From NCBI GenBank assembly GCA_903842345.1, contig CAIMLR010000002.1, positions 62,001-126,000 of the forward strand: DNA of 64,000 nt. The letters are read 5' to 3'. The notes beneath the pieces are model-generated. The model was not told the DNA's origin and searched no databases. It saw only the letters and a program-made list of their open reading frames with translations. Source of the stretch: an uncultured Myxococcales bacterium (GTDB lineage: Bacteria; Myxococcota_A; UBA9042). The first letter of the stretch is position 1. Each line of letters begins with the position of its first letter. Below, in pieces: positions 2,738 to 58,202 of this stretch. The translations under genes and the position numbers were made by a program.

Positions 2738-3084
2738 CGCTGCAAGTCCTTTTTGCGCGGTCAGTCCGCAGATTTCGGCCCATCTGGGCAGAAAACGCCA
2801 AACCAAACGCAAAGTTGCCGGTGAGCCCAGCCTGACGCCAGACATTCTCCCTCAGTATACGGGCCACCGTACACTTGGGCAACAACTCTCGCGGGTGCCG
2901 CCGCGCGGGTCGGTTGCGGGCCCGCGCGTACCGACAAACCCACGGATTCTGGCCGCGGCGGGCATTGGGCACTACACTCGCGGGCGATGCGACGTTCGAC
3001 CGCCCACCGCCAACCACAACAAGCCGCCTCGCGCGCATGCATGCGCACTCGGATGCAAGCGTGTCGCGGACCGCGGGAGCGCGC
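2738..3084. other. intergenic region between divergent lipoprotein and tamB-like genes
   Basis: This 347-base gap separates two divergently transcribed genes. It holds the minus-strand promoter at 2854-2882. For the plus strand I see only a possible -10 (TACACT near 2972) without a convincing -35. A short minus-strand reading frame across it is not credible because it lacks a ribosome site. Confidence 0.5.
2854..2882 (-). promoter_or_regulatory. sigma-70-type promoter for the 905-2737 lipoprotein gene
   Basis: On the minus strand TTGCCC (2877-2882) and TATACT (2854-2859) are spaced by exactly 17 bases. TATACT matches the -10 consensus at five of six positions. Transcription would begin near 2847, giving a leader of about 110 bases before the ATG at 2737. 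This is the best promoter match in the window. Confidence 0.6.
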
Positions 3085-7704: not shown

Positions 7705-7714
7705 CGTGACTGGA

Positions 7715-10700: not shown

Positions 10701-11230
10701 TCCTGGCGCTGCTTGTGCACGCCGGCGGATCGACCCAACTCGGCTCGGAGACCGCCGACCTGCCGGACTGGGCGCGCTTCCAGCTCGGCGGCATCCAGGG
10801 CCTGCGCGGGTACGCCGATCTCGCGGTCAAGGAGTACCTGGCCGACGGCACGACCAAGTCGCTCGACAAGTCCGGCCTGCCGGTCTCGTCCAACGGCGAC
10901 GCGTACCACACCAAGCAGGGCGGCAACTTCATCGTCAACGGCTCCACGGAGCTGCGCTTCCCGATCCTGCGCGACAGCGGCGTATGGGGCGCCGGCTTCT
11001 GGGATTGGGGCGCGATCGCCGACACGGGCTCCGAATTCTACCCCACGAGCATCCGCCACGGCGTGGGCGTCGGCTTGCGCTGGCTGCTGTCCGGGCAAAT
11101 TCCCATCCGCATCGACTACGGCTTCGCGATCGGTCGCCGCGTGCGGGACATCCAGAATACCGGGCTGGTCAAGACGCAGACGCTGGATGATTTTGGCGCA
11201 CTGAGCTTTAGCGTGCTGTACAGCTTCTAG
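7715..11230 (+). CDS. large Omp85-family outer-membrane protein (TamA/BamA-like)
   Basis: A 1171-residue protein starting at the ATG 10 bases after the tamB-like stop. It has a signal peptide (hydrophobic stretch ending in WPHAAAAA), a long periplasmic part of several POTRA-like modules to about residue 740, and a C-terminal barrel. The barrel carries the GLRGY motif at residues 1029-1033, the L6 loop signature of Omp85 proteins, and ends in Phe. Typical TamA is about 580 residues and BamA about 800, so this protein has an extended POTRA region (roughly five or six units by eye). Because of the tight pairing with the tamB-like gene I read it as the outer-membrane half of a TAM-type machine. 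It could instead be a BamA paralogue; a second BamA elsewhere in the genome would settle this. Confidence 0.88.
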   Translation: MADHNLQPTPRAHLVLWAIALAALWPHAAAAANPPMPGASSPATLPRTATETELPHDPSAAAETAQHAAAVSQSGAAESEQRCLKRPIGGVQWQGCAGTRCEEEDDRKQIESLMDLRLGGIVSRGVLSRAASRVMQLGFFATVQVDCRVDGYDHAQIRWTVQGNHFVRRVEFAGNAAVFEDELRAKLVIRPGDILNPETLDGSHALTLQRTAIEGLYQRYGFDAAKVEIAAVPFVGGRPDELRLILAIDEGIKQRVAATRFRLEPLAPPSDAEEHAGLVCPKVSERAIRDVSELQNVEVFTRRAANKAKNNIRTYLRRLGFGNPNVGIPEPKDNIVDITVRPGRCHLLRVYVREEPGQYDKSGFHLVTQDDDQALYDALPFGESGLFEFEEADRGRTALAGVLENRGYLFADVRLDLRPVPPPLDHQVESAITYYVTTGFVSQIRGIQFPGGEGLDIDQMKSVMATKAYDLLNTGGFLQINQLLADLDALRQSYMAAGYFTFGYDLHLPEGVTTTTGYQRLVTVTPQGERYDYLYKDKGFRIRRPAGEDFVYIEVPVRPGLRTHLGALSVDGTHELAEREVRRALALEAGQVVSIDLLNQAVSLVDQQYKNTGFFRARISAFCTAHSPDRPETACTFEAMRAETVDVRLHVEEGERVEIGEVFVRGNFETHLDVILRDMPKSGQAFSAATLFESQRRLRNLGLFGQVTFDYIGDDETPPRQRLGVVVQVAENSFRWMEYAVGVQTINASHSATERTVAPLLDSVGQATAAGDRAASAYNQGMTLNLPNLLLTGEAAWVNRNFFGLGKQMRIPLKVGFARSPTCGEGIIACDQQTVLDTIRLLSFTPTYSDSRLFGSDVTLNLTAPYFIHDYASGVVDLDRTGALVQLARRFGKVALAVAFDAGFIRTRLPSVTTPDNGFRLEPQFQISPTLTWDRTDSPLNPTRGFYLSSSLQYINAYKQVVSSPNPNLIGLYEHGNYLKYEASAKGFIPFGQMAVLALLVHAGGSTQLGSETADLPDWARFQLGGIQGLRGYADLAVKEYLADGTTKSLDKSGLPVSSNGDAYHTKQGGNFIVNGSTELRFPILRDSGVWGAGFWDWGAIADTGSEFYPTSIRHGVGVGLRWLLSGQIPIRIDYGFAIGRRVRDIQNTGLVKTQTLDDFGALSFSVLYSF

Positions 11231-22505: not shown

Positions 22506-24014
22506 TCAGTCGATTGTGCAAGAGAACGATTCCGCCGACGCGCCGGCCAGATGGACTTTGCGCAGCTTGCTTTCGCAGCAATTGCCAAGGCCGGCGTCTT
22601 CCTTGCCGTCCGCGCTGGCCTTGACGTCCTGGACCTTGCCGCCGGCGCCGACGGTGAAGCGGATCTTGAAGTCGGCGACGCCCGCGGATTGGCCGCAGGC
22701 GCGCAGGCTGGGCTTTTGCGCCTCGCACATCTTGCGGATGTCGCTGGAGGTGACGCCTTCGCCGATCGTCGCGCCGCGCACGCCGGGGCCGCCGCTGTCG
22801 AGCAACGCCATCAGGCGCTTCTTCTCTTCTTCGCTGACCGTCGGGCCCACGGGCGCCTTCGCCGTCGCCGCCTTCCGCGCCTTGACGACCGTGCGCATCT
22901 TGGCCGCGAGGTCGGACAACTGCACTTCCTGCTTGGGCTCCTTGGCCTTGGCGGGCTTGGTCGGCTCGCCGGGCTTGGCTTCCGGCTCCGGCTCGTTGCC
23001 AATCTCGATCGTCACGCTTGTCTGGTACGGCAGGTTGAACATGCCGAGGATGTTGTTGGCATCCGCGAGCAGTTGCGCCTTTTTCATGCCCTGGTAGCGC
23101 ATGACGAGGCCAAAACCGATGGCGCCGAGCACCAGCGACGCGACAATCACCGTGATCAGGATCTTCTGCCGTTTGGAGCGCTTGTCCAACCGGAACATCA
23201 CGCTGAATTCCTGCAGCAGGTTCTGGTATTCCTCTTTGGTCGGCTTGTGCTTGTCCGCTTCCGGCATCGCCAAGGCAACGTGATCGAGGTCGTGGTGCGA
23301 CGCGAAGAAGCTGTCGCTCTGGTTTTCCGTCTGCAAGTTGTGCAGGTCGGATTCCGTGGCGCGCAGCGGTGCGACAGGCGCAGGAGTCGGCGCGGGAGCA
23401 GGAGCGGGTGCGACAGGCGCGGGCGCGGTTGGCGCGGTCGACGCGGCGGTTGGCATCGGAACAGGGGCAGGCGCGGGCGTCGGGGCGCGGACGGGCGCGA
23501 CGACGGGTGCCGGAGCTGCGACGGGTGCGGGTGCAGCGACGGGTGCCGGGGCCTGGGATGCGCTTTCGGGCCGCGGCATCATCGGCGGCGGACCACCGGC
23601 GACGTGCACGCCGCTGCCGGTCCGCAAAAGCGGGCGCAGCTCGAGCACATCGACCATCGGAACCCAGTTGGGCAAGCCTTTTTGCCAGACCAGCGACTGA
23701 CCGGAAATCGTGCTGATATCCATCAGCTCCGAGAGCTGCAGCGGCGTGAACGGACCTTTGCGGTCGCGACCCACGGCGACGAACCACGTCGGCTCCGCTG
23801 GCACAATCGCTGACTGCGGCCGGACGTCGGTCACGAGCACGGGACCTGAGACCTCGGTCGTGGCAAGACGGGCGTCAAGCAAGTCGCCGCCCAAATCGCG
23901 AACGATAATCGAAGCCTTGCAGTTGGGGCAACTGATCTGGGCGCGCTGATAGCCGGCCATGCGATCAGGCGGCAACCGGTACATCTTGCTGCAACTTGGA
24001 CAGGAAAAGCGCAC
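22506..24014 (-). CDS. zinc-finger, GYF-domain membrane protein (AgmX/PglI-like)
   Basis: A 502-residue protein. I chose the GTG at 24014 because GGAGGAC lies 9 bases before it and the protein then opens at once with an MJ0042-type zinc finger (FSCPSCSK ... ISCPNCKA, residues 3-33). A GYF domain follows at about residues 77-120 (WFVAVGRDRKGPFTPLQLSE), then a Pro/Ala repeat linker (150-218), one membrane helix (about 284-306) and a C-terminal exported domain with a Cys pair near its end. This architecture is known from myxobacterial AgmX/PglI-type proteins, the former tied to adventurous gliding. The C-terminal domain resembles the AgmX/PglI tail (conserved 'LRACGQ ... KIRFTVGAGGKV'). A motility role here is not shown; no other gliding gene is nearby. 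Confidence 0.75.
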   Translation of the reverse strand: MRFSCPSCSKMYRLPPDRMAGYQRAQISCPNCKASIIVRDLGGDLLDARLATTEVSGPVLVTDVRPQSAIVPAEPTWFVAVGRDRKGPFTPLQLSELMDISTISGQSLVWQKGLPNWVPMVDVLELRPLLRTGSGVHVAGGPPPMMPRPESASQAPAPVAAPAPVAAPAPVVAPVRAPTPAPAPVPMPTAASTAPTAPAPVAPAPAPAPTPAPVAPLRATESDLHNLQTENQSDSFFASHHDLDHVALAMPEADKHKPTKEEYQNLLQEFSVMFRLDKRSKRQKILITVIVASLVLGAIGFGLVMRYQGMKKAQLLADANNILGMFNLPYQTSVTIEIGNEPEPEAKPGEPTKPAKAKEPKQEVQLSDLAAKMRTVVKARKAATAKAPVGPTVSEEEKKRLMALLDSGGPGVRGATIGEGVTSSDIRKMCEAQKPSLRACGQSAGVADFKIRFTVGAGGKVQDVKASADGKEDAGLGNCCESKLRKVHLAGASAESFSCTID

Positions 24015-24209
24015 GGAGCGGTCCTCCAGAGATGCCTGGGGCAAAAAAGGGGCACGGCGCTGTGCCGCAGATCCCCATGGTCTACCCGATCGTGCATCGC
24101 AAGTCTACCCAGCGTCGCTTTTTCCGCCCCGGGCCTCGGCGGATTGCCAACCCAACCGCAGGCGATTCACGATTCTTCACACTGGCTGCAGAAACGGTCG
24201 CCCGGGCGC

Positions 24210-24281: not shown

Positions 24282-25370
24282 ATGAAACCTCACGTTGTCC
24301 ATGGCTTCTGCGTGCTGCTCAGCGCGTTGGCAGGCATGGGCGCGCAACCGGCGTGGGCGCAGACCGTTGCGGGAGCGCGCGTCGATCTGGCGTCCGAGCA
24401 GGACGAGGACGAGGCCAAACGTCCGGTGCGACCCTCGGACGCGTTTCCCTTGAACGGCGACGTGCGGCTGGACAACACGGTGGGCCTCGGGACTTTTGTG
24501 CCGGGTGAAGCGCGGCGGACAAGCTATGACCTGGGCCTGTTCCTGCGCGCCGGCGTCGTGCTGGGTCACGGCCTGAACATCGGCGCGCTGCAGACGGTCA
24601 GCAAGAATCTGGCGAGCAACGCCGATGCCGGCGCCGCGCGGCCGTACGATACGGTCGTGGGCGACACGCTGCTGACGGTGAACTGGTCGCCCACGCACGG
24701 CGCCGACGCCGGCAAGCCCAAGCCACTGCTGCTGCCCGGCGGCATCAAGGTCGGCGCGTCCCTGGTGGCGGCGCTGCCGACTTCGCGCGCCTCGCGCTTC
24801 CAGACGCGTATCCTGGCGCTGACGCCGGGCCTCTCGCTCCTCAAGCCCGACCTGTTCGGCGGTCGCTTGGCGATTCTCTACGCGTTTGGTTTCACCAAGA
24901 ACTTCAATCGCTTGACCACAAGCGCCGTCGACGCCGTGAACTTTCCGAGCCTCGCGCGCCCCGATGGCCCCGAGCTGATGTCCGGCCAGAGCGACATCGC
25001 CACCGGTCTGCTGAACACCGCGTTTTCGATCCGCAACACGCTGTCGGTGACGTGGTTGCCCGCACCGCGCGTCGCGGTTGGCTTGACGTACGTGCTCTAC
25101 AACAACTTCAAATACACCAGCTTTGCCAACGACGCCTTCACCAGCGCCAACGCCAAGCCCGGGCGCGGGCGCAGCGATTTGCAGTGGGGCCTCGTGTCGG
25201 TCGGCTACACGTTTGACCCGGACCAGCGCTGGACGCTGAGCGCGCTGGCCGTGACCGCGTCGCCCCCCTGGAGCGCCGACAACACCACGCTGCGATTCCC
25301 GTTTTTCGATTTCCGTTCCACCGCGGACAACTACACAAGTCTCAGCCTGTCCGTGAACCGGGCGTTCTGA
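24282..25370 (+). CDS. outer-membrane beta-barrel protein
   Basis: A 362-residue exported protein. The ATG at 24282 has a G-rich ribosome site (GGGGG) 8-12 bases upstream, and the signal peptide ends AQPAWAQ. The mature sequence shows alternating hydrophobic strands with aromatic girdles ('VGLTYVLYNNFKYTSF', 'SLSLSVNRAF') and ends in Phe, the usual signal for BAM-dependent insertion. Residues about 40-65 form an acidic plug-like segment. No family recognised, so whether it is a porin, transporter or adhesin base is unknown. It is the first gene of an operon with two giant metzincin-like lipoproteins, 18 bases ahead of the first; a role as their outer-membrane partner is a tempting but untested inference. 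Confidence 0.75.
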   Translation: MKPHVVHGFCVLLSALAGMGAQPAWAQTVAGARVDLASEQDEDEAKRPVRPSDAFPLNGDVRLDNTVGLGTFVPGEARRTSYDLGLFLRAGVVLGHGLNIGALQTVSKNLASNADAGAARPYDTVVGDTLLTVNWSPTHGADAGKPKPLLLPGGIKVGASLVAALPTSRASRFQTRILALTPGLSLLKPDLFGGRLAILYAFGFTKNFNRLTTSAVDAVNFPSLARPDGPELMSGQSDIATGLLNTAFSIRNTLSVTWLPAPRVAVGLTYVLYNNFKYTSFANDAFTSANAKPGRGRSDLQWGLVSVGYTFDPDQRWTLSALAVTASPPWSADNTTLRFPFFDFRSTADNYTSLSLSVNRAF

Positions 25371-25388
25371 CCGCATGCGAGAGAGACC

Positions 25389-28300
25389 ATGAAATTTCTG
25401 CATTTTGTGATCTGCGCCGCGACCCTCGCGCTGGCGGCTTGCGCGGCGGATCCGGGCCTGATCGACCGCACGCAGGTCAATCGCACGCAGAAGGCCGACC
25501 TCGCCGGCGTCTGGTACGAATTTCAGGTCGTCAGCGCGATGCCGTCCACGGCGGCATTTGGCTTCGTGGGGCAGACCGATTTTGGCGGCAAGCAGGGCAA
25601 AGTCATCTTTGACATCCAGGAGAACGCGCTTGTCGTCTATCCGTACGCCGAGGCGGTGGTGGGCGGCGACGCGCAGTGGAACAAGCGCAAGATTCGCAAA
25701 TACTGGGACGAATCGGTGCGCAACCGCGCCAGCCGGGACGTGCAGGAGTCCGATTTCGTCGAGGTCGTCGTCGGCAATCCCATTGAAATGTATCCAATCA
25801 TCAGCCACTTCGACGTCAAGCGCGACTACGCGGCGGCGACCGGTGCCCAGACCAACGTCCTGATCGAAAATACGACCGATCGGCCGTGGTGGCAGCGCGA
25901 CTACGTCCGCGTCGATTGGATGGGCAACACGCTGGCCAACTTCGCGTTTCCGCAGGGTTCGGTGACGATGTCGCCCGTTGACTACTACGTGCAGGGCGAC
26001 GATCTGGAGAATCCCAATCATTTTTATCAGGATCCGGACGGCGGCTACTTCCATTTCACGCGGCACCTGTTCGGCCAGCCGATGTCCACAGGCGCGTGCA
26101 GCCCGTACGCGCTGGCGCCCGGCGATTGTGCCGGTGCGGCGTTTGAAATCCGCGTCAGCTACAAGCGGGCGGACGCACGCCATCTGAATGACTACGAAAT
26201 CCGCCCGTACCACAACTCCGGTCCGGCGCAGAAGTTCGGCTATTTCCTGGCCGATCGCTACACGTTCAGCGAGGACTACGGCCTGACCTCGAGCGGCCAC
26301 GACTACAAGGCCGCGCGCTGGAACATCTGGCAGCAATCCAAGACGTTCGCGCTGCCCAAGGACGCCGCCGGCGCGGAGGTGCACACCGCGTGTGTGACAA
26401 ACGACGACTGCGCCAAGCCGCTGGTCTGCGATCAGCCCGACTGGTTCGTCCCCGGCGCGTGCAAGATTGGCCAACGACTGGATTATGGCGCGCGCAGCAT
26501 CCGGCCCATCCTCTATCACCTGAGCGCGGACACGCCGGCGGACCACACGCCAGCGGAGTATGCGACGGCAGACGGCTGGAACGACGTCTTCCAGGACACC
26601 GTGGCGTGGCTGCTGTTCTGGGAGGACAAATGGCGCGCAGATGGCGCGAAGGACGCCGCGGGAATGCCGACCGGCCAGGTGGGATTCACCGATCCGCAGT
26701 CCAAATTCGGCCAGCGGTTCTGCCAGACCAACGCCGATTGCGCGCAACACGCGGTGGCAACGACGGACCTCAACATCAGCGCGGACAAGTTCAACGGCGT
26801 GGTGATCGCCGCGGGAATGCCGGGCAAGATGCCGCAGGTCGTGGTTGTGGACGATACGCTCTCGGCGCGACCGCAAGTCACCGCCAGCGGTGCGTGGCTG
26901 AGCTTTGTCAACGCGACGCCGGACAGTGCACCGGCGACGCTGACCGTGGGAACGACCCAAGTGCCAGACGTGGCGTTCGTCCCGGGGACGCTGGCCGCCG
27001 CCAAGCAGGGCGCGGTGCTGATCGGCGCCGATTTGCAGGCGACGGAAGCGGTGGTCACTGCGGGATCGGCGACGGCCAAGCTGCCCAACCTCGGACTGAA
27101 GGCGGGCGAGTCCTACACGTTCGTGTACGTGGGCGGCGACGCGCTCGTGCTGGTGCGCGGCGGCCTGAACATTGCCCAGCTGCGGGCGGTCAACGGCATC
27201 GCGCTGAGCGCAACCGCCGCCAAGCCGAGCGCCGGCGAAGACCTGAGCGTCGGCATCGCTGGCGTGCAGAGCGTCGATCGCCTGCCCTACGCCACAGCCA
27301 GCGACGGGCTTTTCTACAGCGGCCAGAACCCGCAGGTCGCGTTCATCCGCCCAGGCAGCCGCACGGACGTCACCTGCATGAGCGACAGCGGCGTCGGCGT
27401 CTGCGTCGGCTGGAAGCAGGAATTGAGCCAGGCGGACGCCGACAAACGCGCGCAGTTCAAGGCCAGCCTGCCGCCGATTTTTGTGCTGTGCGAAAACGTC
27501 TTCACGGCGCAGCGGGATGTCTGCGACGCGCGCGGTGAAACCGGCAAGGCGGGCGCGATGAACGACTGCCGCTACTGGCGGCAGGAAACCAGCGGGTGGC
27601 GCAATCCGTGCGCGGACCGGAACGACGGCGGCTGGGTGCGGCACGCGGCGGAGCCCAAGCTCGTCGGCGATACGCGCTACAATTTTCTGTATTGGGTCAC
27701 CAACATGGAGCCGACGTCGCCCTTGGGCTACGGTCCAGCGGCCGCCGATCCCGACACGGGCGAGATCCAGTGGGCATGCGCCAACGTGTACGGCGCGGCG
27801 CTGGTGACGTATGCGCAGTACGCCAAGGATCTTGTCGATCTGCTGAACGGCGATCTGAGCGATGCGGATCTGCAAACTGGCAAGTACATCAAGGCGTATC
27901 TGGCCACGCAGGCGCGCTCGGCGCTGAACAAGTCGACTTTCATGGGCGCGGCGGCACCGGACGCGGGTCTGACGCCGACCGAGTCGCTGGTGCAGGCGCA
28001 AGCGCGCGCGACGCTGAAGATGAGCGACAAGCTGCCTGGCTTCGTCGCGACGGAACCGCCGACGCCTGAGCAGGAGCAGATGCTGCGCGACATCGCCAAG
28101 CCCGCGGGGCTCGCCAAGGTGCTGGACGCCCAGGGGCTGACGTTTGACCCGCAGCTCGCGCTCAACCACTTGCGGCAGATCCAGGGCACGCCGGTGGAGC
28201 GCGCGATGATCAACGACGAGGTCGCGCTGACGCTATCCGATGGCGGCGTGCAGCCGGGCGACGCGATCGCGCCGGAGCAGATCGCCGCGCTGAGTCCGAC

Positions 28301-30848
28301 CGGTTGGGCGACGCCGCAGCGCGCCATGGACGAGCACAAACGGATGCTGATGTTGGGTATGAACACGATTGAGCCCGCGGAATTCTACGATCCGGCGATC
28401 GTCGGGCTGGCGCAGCGGCTGGCATGCAAGGACGGCCAGGATCCCAACGCGGCGGTGACCGATCCCAAGCAGGTGGACGCGCCGGGCAACTTTCCCAAGC
28501 AGTGCTACAAAGGCGACGCGCTGCGGACCGCGCTTTCCGTGGCGATCTTCCGGGCGACGCTGGAACACGAAGTCGGCCACACCTTGGGCCTGCGGCACAA
28601 CTTCCAGGGCTCGTCTGACCTGCTGAACTATTTTGACCAGTACTTTGACCCCGAGACGGGTCGGCAAAAAGAAGCCGTCGCGTGCGCCGACCTGACCACG
28701 CCAGCGGGCACCGTCGCGGCCAACCAGTTCTGCGGCCGCGATTTGTATGGCCGCAACCTGCTCGGTGAAACCTGCGTCTTCAGCCCGTGCCTGAGCGACG
28801 ACGACTGCCCCAACGGCGCGGCGTGCGCCAAGTCGACCAAACAATGCGTCGACGCCGACGGCGTGAAGACCGGCATGTGCAACGCCACGACGGCGGAGAC
28901 GCTCGCCTGCACCGACGACGCGGCTTGCGGCGACGAAGGCGTGTGCCGCAAAGGCGTCTGCAACGCCAGGATCAAGTGCACGGACCCGGCGAAATGCGGC
29001 ACCGGCAACACGTGCGACGGCGGCTATTGCGTTGACGCCCGCACCGGCGCGCCGCAGAGCATCCCGATGGTGCAATCGGCCACGGGCGTCGCCTACAAGT
29101 ACGTGCCGCGCGCGCAGATGACGCAGGCGGAAATCGACAACCGGCGGATGGAGTACCAATACTCGACGGTGATGGACTACGGCCAGAAGATCCACAGCGA
29201 TATTCACGGCCTGGGCAAATACGACTACGCGGCGATCCGCTACGGCTACGGCGAATTGGTCGACGTGTACGCGGACACCAGCTTCCTGCGGCAGCGCGTG
29301 CTGGACGTGGCCAAGCGCGAGAACGCCAACAAACCGGACATCGCGAAGTGGTCCGTGCAGATGGAGACGACCGGCTGGCAATACGACGTCATCACGCCGC
29401 AGCTCAGCATCGTCAGCGATTGGATGCCGCCGGCGTACAACCGCAAGCGCGACGCGGTGCCGGAATTTCTCGTCAATCTGGAGGCGAACAGCGCGTTCAA
29501 GTACGGCCGCAACGACATGGACCGCACGTACCTGGAGGTGCCGTACAAGTACTGCTCCGATGAATTCGTCGGCATTTTGGGCTGCAATCGCTTTGACACC
29601 GGCGCGACGGCCGAAGAAATCGTCTATCACGCGGGCGAAGCGGTGGAGGAGTACTACCTGTTTGACGCGTTCAAGCGCGAGCGGCAGTGGTTCGCGGCGG
29701 GCGGCAATCCGCTGGGCTATATGGCGCGCATCACCGATCGCTGGCTGACGCCGCTTGCCACGGCGGGGCGCTACTACGCGCTGTACAACAACATCCTGCG
29801 CTTCTATCCGTGGTTTCCGGCGTTTGACCGGCAGGAATCGGGCTTTGCCCAGATGCGGCGCGCGTCGCAGGCGGCGTTCAGCAAGCTGGCGGCGATGATC
29901 GGCTCGCCGGCACCAGGCGCGTATGTCTATGACAAGAAACAGAACCTCTACGTCAACACGTCCTACGCCGAGACCGCGCCGGGGGAGGCGCACGTCACGC
30001 TCGGACCGGGCAAGTACCCGTGGACCACGTTCGCCCACGACAAGGGCTACTACTACGCCGATCACCCGCTGTGGATCGGCGCCTATTGGGACAAAGTCGC
30101 GGCGATCCAGGTCATGACCAACGCGACGGTGTCGCTGCTGACCGAGTCCGCGGGCGAGCAGTTGCCGCTGTTTCGCGGGACGGCCATCGGCTTCAACACG
30201 ATCTACCCGCGCGAGCTGATGAAGGTGCTGGGCGGGCTCGTCGCGGGGGACGCCAACATGATCGGAGGCGTCTTTGTCGCCGATCCGCAGAACCCCGGGG
30301 AAAAAGTCTACAAACCCGCCGATCCGTTCCGCACGTACACAGCGTCGACACCGCGCGTGCAGCCGTCCATCACCAACCTGACGCTGCGTTTGCAGGCGGC
30401 ATGGCAGGCGGTGGCCAACCTGCCGGCGGGATTTGACCCGAGCTACACCGATTCCATGGCCGTGTGGCTCAAGGGCAACGGCTTGCAGTACACCGTTGGG
30501 ACCGGGCAGATCGGCGGGCATGACGCCAAGGTCCAGGTCGTGGAGTTTGAGGATCCGTTTGGCAAGAAGACGTACGTGGCGCCCAAGCCGAACTACGACG
30601 CCGACCGGTACTCGCCGACCTACCGGATGCTGCAGCGCCTGAACAGCTGGAAGACCGGCTGCAGCGATGGGGTCCCGTGCAGCGCCGGCGTGTGCGCAGA
30701 TGGCAGCGCGTGCGCGGCAGAATCGCTTGTCGCGACGACGGGCGCCGTCCAGGACGCGGTCGCAGTGAAGATGAAGGCAGAAATCGAGATTGTCGACGCG
30801 ATGCGACAGCTCTACGCGATCTACGGCGCGATCGGGGCGGGCAACTGA
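25389..30848 (+). CDS. giant metzincin-type zinc metalloprotease lipoprotein, copy 1
   Basis: An 1819-residue lipoprotein (signal ending LALAAC). The metzincin zinc site HEVGHTLGLRH is at residues 1060-1070, with E1061 as catalytic base and H1060, H1064 and H1070 as zinc ligands. A Met-turn-like VMDY lies about 200 residues later (M1262). Between them sits a Cys-rich insertion at about residues 1128-1220 with spacing like SDDDCPNGAACA. The motif resembles the bacterial zinc-dependent metalloprotease group with DUF5117/DUF4953, but the protein is far longer. It starts at ATG 25389 after GAGAGAG. The stop overlaps nothing: the second copy starts on the next base. Substrate unknown; it should act at the cell surface or in the periplasm. 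High confidence in protease class, low in role. Confidence 0.85.
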   Translation: MKFLHFVICAATLALAACAADPGLIDRTQVNRTQKADLAGVWYEFQVVSAMPSTAAFGFVGQTDFGGKQGKVIFDIQENALVVYPYAEAVVGGDAQWNKRKIRKYWDESVRNRASRDVQESDFVEVVVGNPIEMYPIISHFDVKRDYAAATGAQTNVLIENTTDRPWWQRDYVRVDWMGNTLANFAFPQGSVTMSPVDYYVQGDDLENPNHFYQDPDGGYFHFTRHLFGQPMSTGACSPYALAPGDCAGAAFEIRVSYKRADARHLNDYEIRPYHNSGPAQKFGYFLADRYTFSEDYGLTSSGHDYKAARWNIWQQSKTFALPKDAAGAEVHTACVTNDDCAKPLVCDQPDWFVPGACKIGQRLDYGARSIRPILYHLSADTPADHTPAEYATADGWNDVFQDTVAWLLFWEDKWRADGAKDAAGMPTGQVGFTDPQSKFGQRFCQTNADCAQHAVATTDLNISADKFNGVVIAAGMPGKMPQVVVVDDTLSARPQVTASGAWLSFVNATPDSAPATLTVGTTQVPDVAFVPGTLAAAKQGAVLIGADLQATEAVVTAGSATAKLPNLGLKAGESYTFVYVGGDALVLVRGGLNIAQLRAVNGIALSATAAKPSAGEDLSVGIAGVQSVDRLPYATASDGLFYSGQNPQVAFIRPGSRTDVTCMSDSGVGVCVGWKQELSQADADKRAQFKASLPPIFVLCENVFTAQRDVCDARGETGKAGAMNDCRYWRQETSGWRNPCADRNDGGWVRHAAEPKLVGDTRYNFLYWVTNMEPTSPLGYGPAAADPDTGEIQWACANVYGAALVTYAQYAKDLVDLLNGDLSDADLQTGKYIKAYLATQARSALNKSTFMGAAAPDAGLTPTESLVQAQARATLKMSDKLPGFVATEPPTPEQEQMLRDIAKPAGLAKVLDAQGLTFDPQLALNHLRQIQGTPVERAMINDEVALTLSDGGVQPGDAIAPEQIAALSPTGWATPQRAMDEHKRMLMLGMNTIEPAEFYDPAIVGLAQRLACKDGQDPNAAVTDPKQVDAPGNFPKQCYKGDALRTALSVAIFRATLEHEVGHTLGLRHNFQGSSDLLNYFDQYFDPETGRQKEAVACADLTTPAGTVAANQFCGRDLYGRNLLGETCVFSPCLSDDDCPNGAACAKSTKQCVDADGVKTGMCNATTAETLACTDDAACGDEGVCRKGVCNARIKCTDPAKCGTGNTCDGGYCVDARTGAPQSIPMVQSATGVAYKYVPRAQMTQAEIDNRRMEYQYSTVMDYGQKIHSDIHGLGKYDYAAIRYGYGELVDVYADTSFLRQRVLDVAKRENANKPDIAKWSVQMETTGWQYDVITPQLSIVSDWMPPAYNRKRDAVPEFLVNLEANSAFKYGRNDMDRTYLEVPYKYCSDEFVGILGCNRFDTGATAEEIVYHAGEAVEEYYLFDAFKRERQWFAAGGNPLGYMARITDRWLTPLATAGRYYALYNNILRFYPWFPAFDRQESGFAQMRRASQAAFSKLAAMIGSPAPGAYVYDKKQNLYVNTSYAETAPGEAHVTLGPGKYPWTTFAHDKGYYYADHPLWIGAYWDKVAAIQVMTNATVSLLTESAGEQLPLFRGTAIGFNTIYPRELMKVLGGLVAGDANMIGGVFVADPQNPGEKVYKPADPFRTYTASTPRVQPSITNLTLRLQAAWQAVANLPAGFDPSYTDSMAVWLKGNGLQYTVGTGQIGGHDAKVQVVEFEDPFGKKTYVAPKPNYDADRYSPTYRMLQRLNSWKTGCSDGVPCSAGVCADGSACAAESLVATTGAVQDAVAVKMKAEIEIVDAMRQLYAIYGAIGAGN

Positions 30849-33800
30849 ATGAAAACGCTAAATTACATCCACACGCTGTGTGTCGCCGCGCTGCTGAGCG
30901 CGTGTGCCCAGGACCGACCGGTCGTGGACACCGTCCAGCCGAACTACACCGCCAAGCGCGATCTGCTCGGCCGCGAGTGGTACATGCGCACGACCGTTGT
31001 CGACACCAAGTTCACCAACGCCCAGTCGTTTCCCGGCGCGATGGGCGGCCTCGCGCGCGGCGTCTTTGAGGTGCAGGAAAAGGCGCTGTTCTTCTACCGG
31101 ACCTATGAGTTCCTCGCCGGTTCAGAGGCGTACGCGCAGAAGTCCGACACCGATACGCCGCTCAAGGACGCCGCTGGCCAGCCGGTGACGCACGCCGTGC
31201 CGCAGGATTACCAGAAGATCGCGTGCACCGCCGACACCCAATGCCACGCCGGCGCACGGTGCGCAGACGGCAAGCGCAGCGACGCCTGGAAGGACGAGGG
31301 CGACTGGCAGGGCTTCTGCGTCCACAACGCCCAGGCCTACGTCTACCGCGGCAGCCCGCTGCTGGCCTTTCCCATCACCAGCCACTTTGACATCAGCTAC
31401 ACGTACAGCACGGCGACCGGTGAAAAGACCAACAAGCGCTATGAAAACACCAGCGACCGCAAGTGGTACGACCGGGAATTCATGCGCGTCCAGTGGGGCT
31501 TGAACCAGCTCCTCAACGACGACGCGGACGTGCTCGCCAGCGCCGGCGCCAGCGTCGTTTATGCCGGCGACAGCGCGCCCGACGGCGAAGGCTTCCAGGC
31601 CGGCGTTGACCGGAAATGCCCCGACAACGCCAGCGACTGCAGCACGCCCATCAGCAGCCAGCAATTCTTCACCTACACGCACCGGCAGATCCTGACCGCG
31701 TCGACGATCAAGATGAGCGACGGCACCGCGATTCCCGCCTGCTATTTCTACCCGTACTACGTCGGCGGCGTGTACGACTGCGCGTCGGAGGAATACACCG
31801 TCCGCACGTTCTTTCTGGAAGTGCCGCGGTACGCTGACCCGCAGCGGCAGTACGTGGCGCGCGAGATGGACGACGTGGAGCTGCAGAAGTTCGGCTTCTT
31901 CCGCGCCGAGCGGCAGGTCTACGACGTCCAGTACGGCAACATTTTCAGCAACGAAGTGCGCCGTGCGGTGCGCCATCGGATTTGGGACAAGTACGTCAAG
32001 AAGCCGGACGCCGATGGCGTGTGGCGCGGCGATTTTGACTATGCGCAGATGACGCCGCAACCGATTGTGTACTACCTGAACGCGGACCATCCACGCGCGC
32101 TGGCGGCGCAGTCGATCGAGATCGCCAAGATGTGGGCGGAGCCGTTTGCCGCGGTGGTGGCGTTCCAGAAGCCGGGGTTCAATCTGGACTTTCCGATGTT
32201 CGTGCTGTGCGAGAACAGCGACGCGCTGGCGCAAGCGGCGCTGGCGGCGGGCGAAAAGCAGGACGATGGCCAGTGGCAACCCGGCCCGGACGGTCAGCCG
32301 GCGCCGATCGCCAACGGGACGGTCGCGCAGTGGTCGGGCACAGCGCTGGGCAAGCGGTTCTGCCGCAACATGGACCAAGCGCACGCGTTTGGCGATTTGC
32401 GCTACTCGTTCCTGCACGTGGTCAACCAGCCGCTGCAGAACGGGCTGCTGGGCTACGGTCCGGCGGCGAATGACCCGCTGACGGGGGAGATTGTTGCGGC
32501 GAGCGCGCACAGCTACGCGTCGGCGATGAAGACGAGCGCAGAGAGCGCGCTGCAGGCGATGGAGCTGGCCGCGGGCATTCTGGACTTCAACGACGTGAAG
32601 CGCGCCAGCCAGAACCGCTACGTGACGGCGACACGTGTGGCGCAGCAGTACGACCTGAAGGGTCCCAAGAGCCTGGAAGAGGTGCGCAACCACGTGGCGG
32701 CGATGCTGGACCCGGACGTGCGCGGCCAGTTGACCGACCTGGGCCTGGAACCGATCGACGACGCGGGCACATGGGCGCAGAGCCGCATGGCGCACGTGCA
32801 GCAGAACGCCCAGCTGGACGCGATGCTGATCGGCGACGACGACGGCCACACGGTGCAGGCGATGTTCAAGCAGTGGCACATTCCGGTGGGCCAGAGCGCG
32901 GTGGTGACCGACGACGACCGCAAGCAGCTGAGTCTGGCCAACTGGGCGCACAAGGCGGGTTACCTCAAGCAGCAGGCGGTCTACGACAAGCTGGCGGTGA
33001 GCACGCTGCACTTTGCCGATCTGGCCGATGGCGCGATCCTCGGCCTCGCGCAGCAGTACGGCGCGCAGTACGACGAGAAGCTGTGCCAGGCGTATCAGGC
33101 GGCCAAGGTCAAGACGGTGATTGCGTGGACGCCTGAGAGTACGCCTCCCGAGGCTTGCCCGACGGCGGGCGCGTTCGCGTCGCTGGGGCTGGGCAAGGGC
33201 CACGTGTGCGTGGACATGGGCCAAGGGCCGCAGTGGGCGCGCTGTTCAACGGGGACGCTGGCGGCGCAGCTGCGGGTGGCGCTGAACGACGTCAACAACA
33301 ACCAGAATCCGGCGGTCGACCAGCAGCATGTGCTGCCGGGACCGTTCTACTCGGACACGACCGATCCAGTTGTGATCGCGACGCAGCAAATTGGCCGCGC
33401 CGTGCTGGCGCCGCTGCGCGCGACAATCAAGCTGGCGCTGTGGCAGCAGATCTACCGCGGCACGGCGACCCATGAGGTCGGCCACACCCTGGGCCTGCGG
33501 CACAACTTTGAGGCGTCGACGGACGCGCTGAACTACCATCCGCACTTCTGGGACCTGAAGCTGGACGGCAACGGAGAAGTGGCGAACCCGTTTGCCGCGG
33601 AGACGGCGGCGCAGAGCCAGGGCAACCTGCGGATGCACATGCTGGCGTCCGTGATGGACTACACCGCGAAGTTCAACGGCAGGTTCCTGGGCGTGGGCCT
33701 GTACGACAAGGCGGCGCTGAAATTTGGCTACGGCGACATGGTGGAGGCTTTTGACCACCCGCCAGTGCTCGACAAGTCGCCGGGCGGATACCTGGCGCCG

Positions 33801-35363
33801 CTGGCGCAGTACCTGCTGACGCCGCAGGACAGCGATCCGGGGACGCTGCTTGTGCAGGACCTCGGCGTGACGGACCTGAACCGGATCAACCGCCGCATCC
33901 ACTACACGACGCTGCCCAAATACTACGGCGGCGTGGCCAACATGTACGCGCGCCACGACGTGTCCTGGCGCGACATCAAGGGCGCGCCGTGCACGCAGGA
34001 CTCGGACTGCGGCGGCGACAAAGTCTGCGCCAAGCTCGGGGAGGACAAGTTCTGCGCGGTCAAGGCGACGCGCGCCAGCGAAGTGCCGTTCCGCTTCTGC
34101 AGCGACGAGCAGAACGGCCAGACGCCGAGCTGCGCGACCCACGACGAAGGCGCGGATCCGTACGAAATCACCCGCAACGCCTTGGAGGACTATGAAAACT
34201 ACTGGTATTTCTGGGGCTACATGCGGGACAACGAGATGTTCAACCCGAACAATTACGCCAACCGCGTGCTGCGCCAGTTCCTGACGGCGAACCGGCAGAT
34301 GCAGTTCTGGGCGATCGATTTTGCCACGTACCAGAAAAACGGCTGGTGGAAGAGCCACTACGGCCAGGACTTTGATCAGGACGTGAACGGCGGCCTGTCG
34401 GGCGCGCTGGCCTCGCTGCTGGGCTTCAACACGATGGCGCAGACGCTGGGGCGGCCAAGTCCCGGCTACTATGACATGAACGCGCTGCGTGGCCGGTTTG
34501 AGCCGTACAACAACATCGACGCGCAGACATCCGAGCTGCACTGGCTGGATGAGCTGGACGGCGCGCGGCCGGTTTACGCGGCGTGGGGCGGCGGCTACCT
34601 GTACCGCCCGGTGACGGCGGGGCAGATCTACGACCGGCTGGCGGCGTTCCAGATGCTGTCCGATCCGACGCTGCCGCGGTTTGTCGGCATCAACGAGAGC
34701 GAGGACACGCGGCGGTATCTCGTCAGCTACTTCACGCTGTTTCCGCGGCAGCTGATCAACCTCTTTGGCGGCATCAGCTACGAGGGCATCGACGCGTACG
34801 GCTGGATGCTCGTGCAGGGCGACAAGCCCGACGGTTCGGCGGACACGCTGCTTCGGCCGCTTTTTGCCGGCGCCAACGCCAACGCGCCCAAGGCGTGCAA
34901 GGACTTTGCCCCGGACGCGCCGCTGAGCGCCAAGGTCGGCTGCCTGAAGTACCGCGTGTACCCGGACCCGCGGCCGACTTTCCCGTCAACGCGGTTCCGC
35001 ATGCCGCTGCTGGCTTCTGTCTACGGCATGTCGTTCCTGACCAGGAGCTACGACCGGACGTACCTGGACCTGGCGCGGGTGTTCGTGGCCGGCAATCAGG
35101 CGCAAATCACGCTGCCGGACGACGTCACGGCGACCGACATCGCCCAATTCACGGACCCGCTGTCCGGCCGTCAGTACGTGGCGGCGAAGATCAGCGACAA
35201 GACGCTGAACCCGGGCTACGAGGCCGTGCTGGCGGCGCAGAAGGAACTGGCGAAGTACGTGACGCTGGACAAGCTGCAGGCGGATTATTTGTTCAGCGAG
35301 TTTCAGTTTCGGGTGAGTCTTTTGGATCTGGTGCGCACGATGCACGAGGTTTATGAGTATTAG
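30849..35363 (+). CDS. giant metzincin-type zinc metalloprotease lipoprotein, copy 2
   Basis: A 1504-residue paralogue of the preceding gene; its ATG begins on the base after that gene's stop. The lipoprotein signal ends LLSAC. The zinc site HEVGHTLGLRH lies at residues 875-885 (E876 catalytic), followed by the Met-turn SVMDY (M936). A short Cys-rich insertion (CTQDSDCGGDKVC, about residue 1048) falls where copy 1 has its own different Cys cluster. The two share the N-terminal pattern 'Y/N-x-T-x-K-x-DL-x-G-x-W/E-WY' after the Cys, matching internal blocks such as TSHFDI/ISHFDV and LLGYGPAA/PLGYGPAA, and the C-terminal layout. So it is a tandem duplication that has diverged strongly. The two copies may have different targets or act together. 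Confidence 0.85.
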   Translation: MKTLNYIHTLCVAALLSACAQDRPVVDTVQPNYTAKRDLLGREWYMRTTVVDTKFTNAQSFPGAMGGLARGVFEVQEKALFFYRTYEFLAGSEAYAQKSDTDTPLKDAAGQPVTHAVPQDYQKIACTADTQCHAGARCADGKRSDAWKDEGDWQGFCVHNAQAYVYRGSPLLAFPITSHFDISYTYSTATGEKTNKRYENTSDRKWYDREFMRVQWGLNQLLNDDADVLASAGASVVYAGDSAPDGEGFQAGVDRKCPDNASDCSTPISSQQFFTYTHRQILTASTIKMSDGTAIPACYFYPYYVGGVYDCASEEYTVRTFFLEVPRYADPQRQYVAREMDDVELQKFGFFRAERQVYDVQYGNIFSNEVRRAVRHRIWDKYVKKPDADGVWRGDFDYAQMTPQPIVYYLNADHPRALAAQSIEIAKMWAEPFAAVVAFQKPGFNLDFPMFVLCENSDALAQAALAAGEKQDDGQWQPGPDGQPAPIANGTVAQWSGTALGKRFCRNMDQAHAFGDLRYSFLHVVNQPLQNGLLGYGPAANDPLTGEIVAASAHSYASAMKTSAESALQAMELAAGILDFNDVKRASQNRYVTATRVAQQYDLKGPKSLEEVRNHVAAMLDPDVRGQLTDLGLEPIDDAGTWAQSRMAHVQQNAQLDAMLIGDDDGHTVQAMFKQWHIPVGQSAVVTDDDRKQLSLANWAHKAGYLKQQAVYDKLAVSTLHFADLADGAILGLAQQYGAQYDEKLCQAYQAAKVKTVIAWTPESTPPEACPTAGAFASLGLGKGHVCVDMGQGPQWARCSTGTLAAQLRVALNDVNNNQNPAVDQQHVLPGPFYSDTTDPVVIATQQIGRAVLAPLRATIKLALWQQIYRGTATHEVGHTLGLRHNFEASTDALNYHPHFWDLKLDGNGEVANPFAAETAAQSQGNLRMHMLASVMDYTAKFNGRFLGVGLYDKAALKFGYGDMVEAFDHPPVLDKSPGGYLAPLAQYLLTPQDSDPGTLLVQDLGVTDLNRINRRIHYTTLPKYYGGVANMYARHDVSWRDIKGAPCTQDSDCGGDKVCAKLGEDKFCAVKATRASEVPFRFCSDEQNGQTPSCATHDEGADPYEITRNALEDYENYWYFWGYMRDNEMFNPNNYANRVLRQFLTANRQMQFWAIDFATYQKNGWWKSHYGQDFDQDVNGGLSGALASLLGFNTMAQTLGRPSPGYYDMNALRGRFEPYNNIDAQTSELHWLDELDGARPVYAAWGGGYLYRPVTAGQIYDRLAAFQMLSDPTLPRFVGINESEDTRRYLVSYFTLFPRQLINLFGGISYEGIDAYGWMLVQGDKPDGSADTLLRPLFAGANANAPKACKDFAPDAPLSAKVGCLKYRVYPDPRPTFPSTRFRMPLLASVYGMSFLTRSYDRTYLDLARVFVAGNQAQITLPDDVTATDIAQFTDPLSGRQYVAAKISDKTLNPGYEAVLAAQKELAKYVTLDKLQADYLFSEFQFRVSLLDLVRTMHEVYEY

Positions 35364-35720: not shown

Positions 35721-37346
35721 TCAAATCACCAAGACCTCGCGATGCTTCCCAAACACCTCGCGCAGCACGCCGGAAATCTCCCCGGTTGTCGCCCAGGCCC
35801 GCACGCAATCCACGATCTTCGGCATCACGTTGGCGCCCGACTCTGCCGCGTCTTTCAGCGCCCGCATCGCCTGCGCGTGCGCGTCCGCATCCCGCCGCTC
35901 GCGCAGCGCGCGCACCCGCGCCACCTGCTCGCCTTCGATGCGCGCGTCGATCTTCTGGATCGGCATCGGCACTTCCTGCTGCGACTGGAACTGGTTCACG
36001 CCGACGATGACTTGCTCGCCTTTTTCCACCGCCCTCTGGTAGCGATACGCGCTGTCCTGGATTTCCCGCTGCGGGTAGCCGTGCTCGATCGCCGCGACCA
36101 TGCCACCCAGCTCGTCGATGCGCGCGAGGTATTGCTCGGCTTTGGCCTGCAGCTCGTCGGTCCACTGCTCAATCAGGTAGCTGCCCGCCAGCGGGTCAAT
36201 CGTGTCCGCCACGCCCGACTCGTAGGCAATGATCTGCTGCGTCCGCAGCGCAATTTCCACCGCCGCTTCCGTTGGCAAGCCCAGCGCCTCGTCGCGGGAA
36301 TTCGTGTGCAGCGACTGCGTCCCGCCCATCACCGCGGCCAGCGCTTGCAGCGTCACGCGCACGATGTTGTTGTCCGGCTGCTGGGCCGTCAGCGTCGATC
36401 CGCCGGTCTGCGTGTGGAAGCGCAGCTTGCACGATTCGTCGCGCTTGGCGCCAAACCGCTCGCGCATGATCTTGGCCCACAGGCGCCGCGCCGCGCGGAA
36501 TTTCGCGACTTCTTCCAGGAAGTTGTTGTGGCCGTTGAAGAAGAACGCCAGGCGGTTGGCAAAATCGTCCACGGTCAGGCCGGCCTGGATCGCTGCTTCC
36601 ACGTACGCGATGCCGTCGCCGAGCGTAAACGCCAACTCCTGCGCCGCGTCGCAGCCCGCCTCGCGGACGTGGTAACCGGAAATGGAGATCGTGTTCCACT
36701 TGGGCACGTCGCTCGCGCACCAAGCGAAGAGATCGGTGATCAGCCGCATGGACGGCCGCGGTGGATAAATGTAGGTGCCGCGCGCCATGTATTCTTTGAG
36801 GATGTCGTTCTGGACGGTGCCTTGCAGCAGCTTGGGATCGATGCCCTGGCGCTCCGCCGCGACGTACAGGAAGCCAAGCAGCGTTGTCGCCGTCGCGTTG
36901 ATGGTCATCGACACGCTGACGTCTGCCAGCGGAATCTGCGCCATCAGCGTTTCCATGTCCTCCAGCGACGCGATCGACACGCCGACGCGGCCGACCTCGC
37001 CCAGCGCCTGCTCGTGATCGGGATCCAGGCCCATTTGCGTGGGCAGATCGAACGCCACGGACAGGCCCGTCTGGCCGCGCGCCAGCAGATAGCGGTAGCG
37101 CTCGTTGGACTCGGCGGCGCTGGCAAAACCCGCGTACTGGCGCATGGTCCACAGGCGGCCGCGGTACATGGTCGCCTGGACGCCGCGGGTGAACGGGAAT
37201 TGCCCGGGGAATTCCGCGCTGCCGTCGCCGGTGTAGAGAGGCGGGACTTCCTCGCCAGTCGAGCGGCGAAACGTCGCCTGGCGCAGGGCTTTCTTGGTGG
37301 CGGGCTGGTAGACGCGCTCCAGCCAGGACGTGTGCGAGTCGGTCAT
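35721..37346 (-). CDS. methylmalonyl-CoA mutase large (catalytic) subunit, without B12 domain
   Basis: A 541-residue catalytic TIM-barrel subunit. It carries the mutase signatures [47 protein letters not shown] and [12 protein letters not shown]. The Tyr in TMY and Arg in PSMR are the residues that, in methylmalonyl-CoA mutase, read the substrate carboxylate; isobutyryl-CoA mutases carry other residues there. It interconverts succinyl-CoA and methylmalonyl-CoA. The frame ends after residue 541, about 150-190 residues before the C-terminal cobalamin-binding (DxHxxG) domain of fused enzymes, so a separate small subunit is needed; none is in the window. GAGGAG lies 9 bases before the ATG, and the start is 4 bases past the stop of the RluA-type gene. 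Propionate/branched-chain or odd-chain catabolism is the likely use. Confidence 0.93.
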
Positions 37347-37350
37347 GACC

Positions 37351-38340
37351 TCACTCCTCAAGCTGCGGTTCACTGGGCAGCTTCGGTTCCTTCGGCGGCT
37401 TGGGGCCGTCGTACGGCCTGGGATCCATCATGGCCCAGTCCGCCGGCAGCTGCAGCGGCGCGCCGCCCGTCAGCGCCCAGAAATCCGGCGGCGGCGGCAG
37501 CGTCCATGTGCATTGCTGGCCATCTTCCGGGTGGCGCAGGCGCAGCAGCGCGGCGTGCAGGCCAATGCGCGGCAGGCTCAGCGTGTCGCCGTACTGGCGA
37601 TCGCCCAGCAGCGCCCCCGCCGCCCATGCCAAATGCAGGCGAATCTGGTGGCTGCGTCCCGTCTCCAGCGCCAGCAGCACGAGCGCCATGCGCTCCGCGG
37701 CGGCAAAATCCAGCGGCATCACGTGGGTCTTCGCCGGCATGCCCGCCGGGTGCAGGCCCATGCGCCCGGGCGTGATCTCGCGGATCGGCTCGCTGATCGT
37801 CTGCTGCGGCACGGGAATCGCCGTGTGCACAAGCCCCAGGTAGCGCCGCGTCGCGCGGTGGTAGCGCAACTGCTCCGCGAGGTTGGCCGTGCCATCGGGG
37901 CGCAGGCCGTACATCACCAGCCCTGACACGTCGCGATCCAGCCGGTGCAATTCGCCCAGATACGCCCGCGGATCCAGCGTCGCGCGCACGCGGATCGAGA
38001 GCGCGTCGCCCCCGCGCGGCGGCGGCTGCGTCGGCAGTCCCGCCGGTTTGTCGACAATCATCAGCCAGTCGTCGCGGTACACGACGCGCAGTTGGCCCTC
38101 GTCGATCTGCGTGCGATCGGGATTGGTGGGCAGCAGCCGCAGCGGTTCGCCAAAGGGCACGGACGTCGCCGCGAGCTGGCATCGGCTGCCGGAAAGGTAC
38201 ACCGCGCCCTGCTCAATGGAGCGCCGCGCCTCGTTGCGGGTCAGCCCCGACAGCGTGGCGAGGACGAGATCGAGGCGCTTGCCGGCCAGTTCAACGGGAA
38301 CGGCAAAGTCGCGGGCTTGGGCATCAAAGGGGGCTGTCAT
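37351..38340 (-). CDS. RluA-type RNA pseudouridine synthase
   Basis: A 329-residue enzyme that isomerises uridine to pseudouridine in RNA. The ATG at 38340 has GGAGG 8 bases upstream. An S4-like N-terminal part (residues about 20-80) precedes the catalytic domain with the motif [10 protein letters not shown], in which the Asp after HRL is the nucleophile. Other matching pieces are [11 protein letters not shown] and [11 protein letters not shown]. Its C-terminus carries a Pro/Lys-rich tail ([12 protein letters not shown]) not usual for the family. The exact target (23S rRNA or tRNA) cannot be told from this sequence. It lies directly upstream of the mutase gene and 140 bases from a divergent gene of unknown function. 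Confidence 0.88.
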
Positions 38341-56888: not shown

Positions 56889-58202
56889 CTACGGCAGTCC
56901 CGACTTGGGCGAGACGAGCGAATCGGGGTCAAAAGCCCGGTACAGCGACGTCAGCACCACCTTGGCCGCCGGGCTCATCCGCTCGCGCACAGCCTGCCGC
57001 CACCGCGAACCGCCGGCAATCGGCAATGCGCCCGCGTCCAGCAGATGGCCCGCGTCGGCCTGGAACGGATGCGGTCCCGGCCCCACCGCCTGCAGCCGCA
57101 GCCGCACGGCGTCCGCACCCACCGCCCACGCGCGCTGAACCGGCACGTCGGTGCGCGCCGCGAGCGCGTCCGCCACATCGAGCAGCGCCGGAATGTCGGG
57201 CCAGGCCAGCTGCAGCTCCAGCACCGCGCCGTCCGGCCGCGATTCCGGCCAACCCGGCGCTTGCTGCCCCAACCGCACGCGGCGCTCCTCTTCGGCAAAC
57301 GCCGTCAGCGCCACGCCGAGCGCCGCCAACCGCGCCGTCGTCTCGCGGATCAGCACCGCCAAATCGCCTTCGTCGCGCAGGCTGGAAACCCGCACCGCCA
57401 GCGTCGCTGCGCCGCCGCTCTCCTGCAGCCGCAGCGTGTCGATCTGCCGCGCCGCCAGCAAGGCCCGGGCTGCCGACAGCACCGCCAACACCGCCGGGCG
57501 CGTCGCCGGGAATGTGCCTTGCGCCCAAGCCGACCACGGCGCGCGGTGCAGCCGGACGGTCAGCTCGCAGACCACCAGCCCGCGACCTTCATGCCCATCC
57601 AGCAAACTGAGCGGCGAGGGCAACCCGCGCGCCGCGCTGGCGGTCAGGCCAAACAGCTCCGTCGCCCCCAGCTGCAGCGTGCGACCCGCGCCCGTCACAA
57701 CGCGCGCCCCGATGATGTCCTGCAGCAGCGTCGCCTCGCCAAGGCCAATCTCACCGCAGTCGCCGCCGGCCAGCATCTGGCCCAGCGTCTCGTCCGGCCA
57801 CAGCGGCAAACCGCGCACGCACAGCCGCGCCTGGCGCGCCGCCCGATCCAGCGCCTGCACTTCCATGCCCGCGCCCACGGTCGCCAGGCGCCGGCCAATG
57901 TCGATTTCCAGCGGCCGCTGCAGCGCGGACACGTCGAGCACAATCGCGTCGGTCAGGTCCTCATCGAGCGGCTGGGGCAGGCGATGCCGCACTTCCAGCG
58001 CCACATGCCGACGCCGCGCCACCTGCACCGCGTGTTCCACGTCGAGGCTCGAAAGCGGGAGCACCAGCGCCAGCACGTCCCGGCCACAGCGCAGCCGCGC
58101 GCTCTCGCCCACGCGGACGCGCTCACGGCCAAGCTTGTCGATCAGGTCCGCTTGGACCGCCACCACTGCCATCTGGCCTATGCCACCGCGCGGTTCCAGC
58201 AT
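56889..58202 (-). CDS. FAD-linked oxidase (PCMH-type) family protein
   Basis: A 437-residue flavoprotein. The FAD-binding part is at about residues 35-200, with VLDVSALQRPLEID, RRLATVGAGMEV and LGQMLAGGDCGEIG, typical of the PCMH fold found in glycolate oxidase subunits and related enzymes. The C-terminal part is a divergent cap domain. Substrate unknown; a GlcE-like or D-lactate-type dehydrogenase is possible. Start unsure: ATG 58202 used, or the ATG at residue 11 (58172). It is 30 bases past the stop of the giant lipoprotein gene, so read-through transcription is likely. Confidence 0.75.
   Translation of the reverse strand: MLEPRGGIGQMAVVAVQADLIDKLGRERVRVGESARLRCGRDVLALVLPLSSLDVEHAVQVARRRHVALEVRHRLPQPLDEDLTDAIVLDVSALQRPLEIDIGRRLATVGAGMEVQALDRAARQARLCVRGLPLWPDETLGQMLAGGDCGEIGLGEATLLQDIIGARVVTGAGRTLQLGATELFGLTASAARGLPSPLSLLDGHEGRGLVVCELTVRLHRAPWSAWAQGTFPATRPAVLAVLSAARALLAARQIDTLRLQESGGAATLAVRVSSLRDEGDLAVLIRETTARLAALGVALTAFAEEERRVRLGQQAPGWPESRPDGAVLELQLAWPDIPALLDVADALAARTDVPVQRAWAVGADAVRLRLQAVGPGPHPFQADAGHLLDAGALPIAGGSRWRQAVRERMSPAAKVVLTSLYRAFDPDSLVSPKSGLP

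Follow-up and report, generated by a model that had tools for sequence, protein, structure and literature searches.

What ties an outer-membrane beta-barrel to the giant protease lipoproteins encoded directly behind it? The question is raised by three genes (24282-35363, plus strand) in a 64,000-nucleotide stretch of DNA from an uncultured Myxococcales bacterium (contig CAIMLR010000002.1, positions 62,001 to 126,000), called the window below, where a beta-barrel gene is followed by the genes for metzincin lipoproteins A and B. The original prediction, made from the letters of the window, proposed a protease system of the cell surface in which the barrel acts as partner or channel, and this proposal is supported by the gene-order comparisons and predicted folds reported here: we give a rough probability of 0.45, somewhat short of even odds, to the barrel serving protease lipoproteins exposed at the surface as a dedicated conduit or partner in the outer membrane. 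The observations comprise a conserved order of the genes, lipoboxes, intact zinc sites, predicted folds, and a clustering of barrel types with metzincin types. The three genes are:

24282-25370, plus strand: outer-membrane beta-barrel gene R, 362 aa, ATG start, signal peptide, C-terminal Phe, LPTS motif at residues 165-168
25389-30848, plus strand: metzincin lipoprotein A, 1819 aa, PF16313 match of 42.4 bits, orthologues in 30/30 loci
30849-35363, plus strand: metzincin lipoprotein B, 1504 aa, PF16313 match of 44.2 bits, alignment of 18 orthologues

The open reading frames (ORFs) and their translations bear out the lengths predicted for the two proteases, and each contains HEVGHTLGLRH and a later VMDY. 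The barrel gene and A are separated by 18 bases, and A and B by none, with the A stop codon (TGA) at 30846-30848 and the B ATG at 30849, as had been predicted. The open frame of the barrel reaches further upstream, to a TTG at 24144, and the GC content at third codon positions of A and B (0.86-0.89) is typical for coding genes of the window genome.

The order of the two protease genes is conserved in other genomes. Homologues were sought in 53 relatives and were present in 51, and A was followed by B at all 30 A-B loci fetched from relatives; on this comparison the A-B tandem is not chance. A tree of 120 homologues places A and B in separate clades, A beside the C-type and B beside the E-type metzincins, which makes the tandem older than this class, and the same tree indicates that other Myxococcota formed tandem pairs independently (L126/L131/L135, L120/L127, L134 and L136). 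The zinc ligands (HEXXHxxxxxH) are kept in all 142 distinct homologues of at least 1000 aa, and the family is thus not made up of catalytically dead copies, an outcome which the original prediction had named as counting against it. The locus L127 was considered as a candidate dead protease and rejected, as its irregular motif reads HEMGHTLNLRH and leaves the zinc ligands intact.

The barrel gene was followed with a profile built from 14 aligned A-linked barrels, which in a first round gave 36 matches in 27 genomes. Directly beside a metzincin lie 26 of these (14 with A-B, 12 with other types), and in most families the barrel is directly upstream of A; the window's own genome also has a C-type metzincin copy with an adjoining barrel on contig 39. 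The barrel is present in 48 of the 52 genomes of the class, contrary to the second outcome named at the outset, its absence from all genomes, and one genome of the class (G024) has neither barrel nor metzincin. Nine of the ten unlinked barrels make up a single orphan clade in families f5 and f12, and the tenth (G040:C63) is a marginal match (E-value 9e-5). The barrel tree clusters by locus type, with 12 changes against a shuffled mean of 43; there is a supported clade of C and D barrels, and a second supported one unites the orphan barrels close to the A-B barrels, which suggests that the orphans have been relocated.

Two sets of loci vary this arrangement. A third metzincin locus of the window's genome (L010, 2975-10651 on contig 14) has the barrel downstream instead of upstream, in the order 1019-aa lipoprotein-like gene without Pfam match, metzincin, barrel. 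At L093, L097 and L108 the metzincins are of the D type (HEVGHSLGLMH), a clade distinct from the C type, and their barrels nest among the C-type barrels; an exchange of the protease partner on one barrel is a possible explanation of these trees.

Loci from a scan of the genome collection take the pair beyond the class, with barrels beside metzincins of several types and in several phyla. Elsewhere in the Myxococcota one metzincin (L124) or two (L126, L127, L131, L135) come after the barrel, and in Bdellovibrionota, Vibrio, Aliivibrio, Aeromonas, Ferrimonas and Motilimonas a barrel of the window family adjoins the metzincin at each of the 23 loci where a large metzincin has a visible flank. It is directly upstream on the same strand at 20 of these, upstream on the opposite strand at one and downstream at two, usually with a gap of less than 60 bases; 15 barrels were found by the first-round profile (E 6e-11 to 3e-4), and the remaining eight by a second-round profile (E 3e-16 to 2e-54) in whose building they had not been used. 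None of 23 shorter canonical-type (Bacteroidetes-type) loci of the same protease family (PF16313, also DUF4953), whose proteins are mostly of 785-1130 aa and are exceeded 1.5-2-fold by A and B, has an adjoining barrel, and at L142 (phylum UBP6) the barrel-like protein upstream of the metzincin was not recognised by the barrel profile. Judged from these gene neighbourhoods, the coupling of barrel and metzincin genes is strongly supported, and the pair is much wider than the window's class.

In the plasmid collection only two Vibrio records matched. A Vibrio parahaemolyticus plasmid record (L189, 4015-4883) has a barrel frame split into two overlapping ORFs, with no listed gene, upstream of a metzincin labelled 'M66 family metalloprotease', and intact barrel copies are found in other Vibrio. 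The module is also present in L109 (CAMDBH010000034.1), which is titled a Klebsiella pneumoniae metagenome-assembled genome; it matches the window's bacterial family, and the title is probably misassigned.

Pfam and NCBIfam hold no name for the window barrel, and its family has no Pfam name in the 14 aligned members checked. The AlphaFold model has 12 long strands, and in agreement with the barrel identity given in the original prediction the modelled fold matches outer-membrane transporters: the best Foldseek matches (E 2e-9 to 1e-8, template-modelling score (TM) 0.5-0.6 by target length) are FapF and then the COG4313 channel 4rl8 (E 1.3e-8, TM 0.58), with general porins also among the matches. 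FapF of the Pseudomonas Fap system (PDB 5o65, 5o67, 5o68) has been shown experimentally to export amyloid polypeptides, needs the dedicated protease FapD and has P-T-G motifs (PMC5557850), and the barrel resembles it in the 12-stranded fold, the protease partner in the operon and a P-T-[G/S] motif. It differs from FapF in having no significant sequence match, and the locus differs from Fap in lacking amyloid subunits and the C39 protease FapD; none of the fapA-E partner genes is found there, the operon consisting of the barrel and two metzincins between oppositely transcribed genes, and the protease is a giant metzincin lipoprotein instead. In COG4313 channels (PF13557; Pput2725, PDB 4rl8), Asp92 and Pro119-Thr120-Gly121 belong to a conserved cluster that has been suggested to act as a lateral gate (PMC4493636), and this is echoed in the barrel family by Asp128, invariant in the 14-member alignment, and by the nearly invariant PTS at 166-168; unlike the barrel here, COG4313 genes are tied to hydrophobic uptake and not to proteases (PMC4493636). 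None of the 14 aligned barrels passes the PF13557 (Phenol_MetA_deg) cut-off, and a paralogous barrel at L009 scores 20.0 bits against the cut-off of 22. On its model the barrel would thus be of the FapF/COG4313 fold class, and by Pfam score it falls outside PF13557.

The proteases themselves contain the following features:

25431-25442, plus strand: A lipobox LAAC (Cys18), at the same position in orthologues
28566-28598, plus strand: A zinc motif HEVGHTLGLRH, residues 1060-1070
28683-29030, plus strand: A Cys-rich insert, residues 1099-1214, 16 Cys, between zinc motif and Met-turn
29169-29180, plus strand: A Met-turn VMDY, residue 1261
30894-30905, plus strand: B lipobox LSAC (Cys19), with Cys19 and Ala20 invariant in 18/18 B orthologues
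32574-33101, plus strand: B helical insertion, about residues 576-751, from the B model and tblastn gaps
33471-33503, plus strand: B zinc motif HEVGHTLGLRH, residues 875-885
33651-33662, plus strand: B Met-turn VMDY, residue 935
33990-34133, plus strand: B Cys-rich patch, residues 1048-1095, outside the zinc/Met-turn interval, weak TIGR04201 (Myxo_Cys_RPT) match below cut-off

Both N-termini have a signal peptide and a lipobox ending in Cys, as expected of predicted lipoproteins. Both proteins exceed the PF16313 (Met-zincin) gathering cut-off of 24.2 bits, with a best stretch spanning only about 30 of the 316 model positions, and the match recurs in 18/18 B orthologues (E up to 0.01). They share with the PF16313 zinc metalloproteases of Bacteroidetes and others the HEXXHXXGXXH motif, the Met-turn and the GDLRY...DP.TGEI strands before the zinc helix, and differ from canonical members in a helical insertion before that helix and, for A, also in the Cys-rich insert within the active-site interval; DUF5117 and DUF5118, the N-terminal companion domains of canonical members, have no Pfam match in A or B at E up to 1. 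In B the helical insertion sits between the GDLRY...TGEI strands and the zinc helix, and it is absent from the shorter canonical family. A metzincin motif on a lipoprotein is also known from the zinc-dependent metalloproteinase lipoproteins of TIGR03952 (BF0631) and from M66, although A and B stay far below the TIGR03952 cut-off (14 vs 208 bits), and the M66 cut-off is reached only in an Aeromonas relative, with one Vibrio homologue annotated M66 in RefSeq.

A and B are homologous, with about 27% identity over the N-terminal 440 or so residues and three further blocks. The common N-terminal layout originally proposed was thus correct and too narrow, as similarity extends to the active-site region and the C-terminal half. 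Of the differing Cys-rich insertions near the active site, only the one in A was found: its 16 Cys lie inside the zinc/Met-turn interval, whereas the patch of B listed above and a second, small one (residues 126-157) lie outside, and the distance from zinc motif to Met-turn is 200 residues in A against 59 in B. All 30 A orthologues have the insert, with 8, 12, 16, 18 or 22 Cys and always an even number, and none of 31 B orthologues has one, a clean and old difference between A and B. The model of B residues 22-1200 is of good overall confidence (predicted local distance difference test (pLDDT) 82.5, predicted template-modelling score 0.84). It has an N-terminal part rich in beta structure, a catalytic part that the helical insertion divides, and the zinc helix. 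A Foldseek search with this 1179-residue multidomain model gave no significant match (top TM below 0.07) and is uninformative on the accessory domains; a PDB sequence search with B alone found no relative, and the best that the B profile retrieved among solved metzincins was serralysin, weakly, at E 0.06. An ARAGORN call of tRNA-Glu at 33732-33825 lies wholly inside the B frame and is most likely spurious.

In the reading that we favour, A and B would leave the cytoplasm through Sec, receive a lipid at the N-terminal Cys and be directed to the outer membrane, where barrel R, a predicted 12-stranded channel of the FapF/COG4313 fold class, would be their dedicated partner and make contact with them, most likely letting the lipoproteins reach the cell surface or holding them there, and the zinc domains would cleave external or envelope polypeptides at the surface. 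We prefer export or display over import because the closest fold is that of a polypeptide exporter, several metzincin types are accompanied by the barrel, and the unit has no attached genes for peptide uptake. The Slam translocon (PMC9090332) is similarly an outer-membrane barrel dedicated to carrying particular lipoproteins to the surface, although the barrel family differs, the lipoprotein partners here are proteases, and neither the DUF560 barrel nor the TPR domain of Slam has a Pfam match in the window barrel or the aligned members.

Several results speak against this reading. The barrel model is of moderate confidence (pLDDT 71), with the N-terminal 50 residues below 50 and disordered, and a PDB search with the barrel profile gave no relative and no sequence link to FapF at E below 1. 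The PTS motif is kept in most Myxococcota barrels and is missing in many members from Bdellovibrionota and Gammaproteobacteria. The fold leaves the direction of transport undecided, since the COG4313 channels studied so far are implicated in importing hydrophobic molecules (PMC4493636). The clade of f5 and f12, and one f1 genome, have A-B without the barrel beside it; f5, f12 and G021 keep A-B with the barrel elsewhere in the genome, and no barrel was found in three f5 genomes (G033, G042, G047). Such unlinked or unfound barrels weaken a claim of strict dependence. Among E-type metzincins 0/9 have a barrel neighbour; the idea of a hidden barrel there was rejected, the neighbours being kinases or low-complexity proteins. 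A bolder version lets a laterally gated barrel of the FapF/COG4313 type carry the giant protease lipoproteins to the surface together with their lipid anchor. It would amount to an undescribed secretion or display route common to Myxococcota, Bdellovibrionota and Vibrio/Aeromonas relatives, with a heteromeric A+B pair on one barrel in this class; we regard this as doubtful.

That COG4313 channels are implicated in import also lends substance to a serious rival, in which the barrel takes up peptides or hydrophobic ligands freed by the surface proteases, like SusC/SusD-type or chitoporin arrangements, and the genes travel together since their functions are consecutive and not since the barrel exports the protease. 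The porins among the fold matches and the single channel for two proteases in the window agree with this, but the nearest fold match is an exporter, and Pput2725 was judged unlikely to pass hydrophilic molecules (PMC4493636), which would make peptides an unusual cargo. Nor does an inner-membrane peptide transporter adjoin the unit in the window: upstream is an ORF (22506-24044) with a GYF domain and a weak zinc-ribbon match, and downstream a methylmalonyl-CoA mutase (35721-37373), both on the opposite strand, which leaves barrel, A and B as a unit of their own. On balance we consider an uptake channel rather unlikely.

That A and B face the periplasm as envelope-maintenance proteases, with the barrel merely co-regulated, would suit the clades which keep A-B without a linked barrel; the very large size of A and B, Cys-rich repeats of a kind typical for exported myxobacterial proteins and the adjacency of the barrel over several phyla make it improbable, and the repeated lineage-specific tandem duplication fits an outward-facing role better. 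We also find it distinctly improbable that the barrel is the substrate of the protease, or is gated or matured by it, as in the proposed cleavage of FapF by FapD. FapF does work with this dedicated protease, whose catalytic residue is required for secretion (PMC5557850), and barrel and protease genes are co-conserved here; against this, two enzymes of 1504-1819 aa with large accessory domains seem excessive for cutting one barrel, the barrels pair with several metzincin types, and the locus has no recurrent gene for another secreted cargo. Inheritance of the neighbourhood by closely related genomes, without a functional link, could suffice to keep the genes together, but is highly improbable given the recurrence of the linkage at paralogous loci within a single genome (C2, C39 and, with the barrel downstream, C14) as well as across phyla in otherwise different neighbourhoods, and given the share of barrels that adjoin a metzincin (26/36).

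Taken singly, the three components (protease family, lipoprotein signal, barrel fold) are of known kinds. In the literature searched (open-licence papers only) we found no description of the coupled barrel-metzincin module or of the A-B pair, and the sequence comparisons point to a cell-surface protease system which is so far unnamed. For most bacteria beyond a few model systems, the path that takes lipoproteins and giant proteases to the outer side of the outer membrane is an open question, and a fixed pair of one barrel and one or two proteases, found over several phyla including culturable Vibrio, Aeromonas and Ferrimonas relatives, makes it directly accessible to gene deletion. The pair further offers a first functional context for proteins annotated only as DUF4953 or 'M66 family metalloprotease' and for hypothetical barrels.

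Elsewhere in the window, about 13 kb upstream of the unit (2875-11230), a TamB-like gene and, behind it, an Omp85/POTRA barrel gene form an assembly pair of the TAM type. A second ARAGORN tRNA call (57047-57135) has an undefined anticodon and lies inside an ORF (56889-58202). Finally, a large Cys-rich protein is encoded at 58233-62234 on the minus strand, with a match to the slime-mould Dicty_CTDC repeat in eight stretches, and another large Cys-rich protein, at L012 (3271-9819, minus strand), is similar to it by eye.

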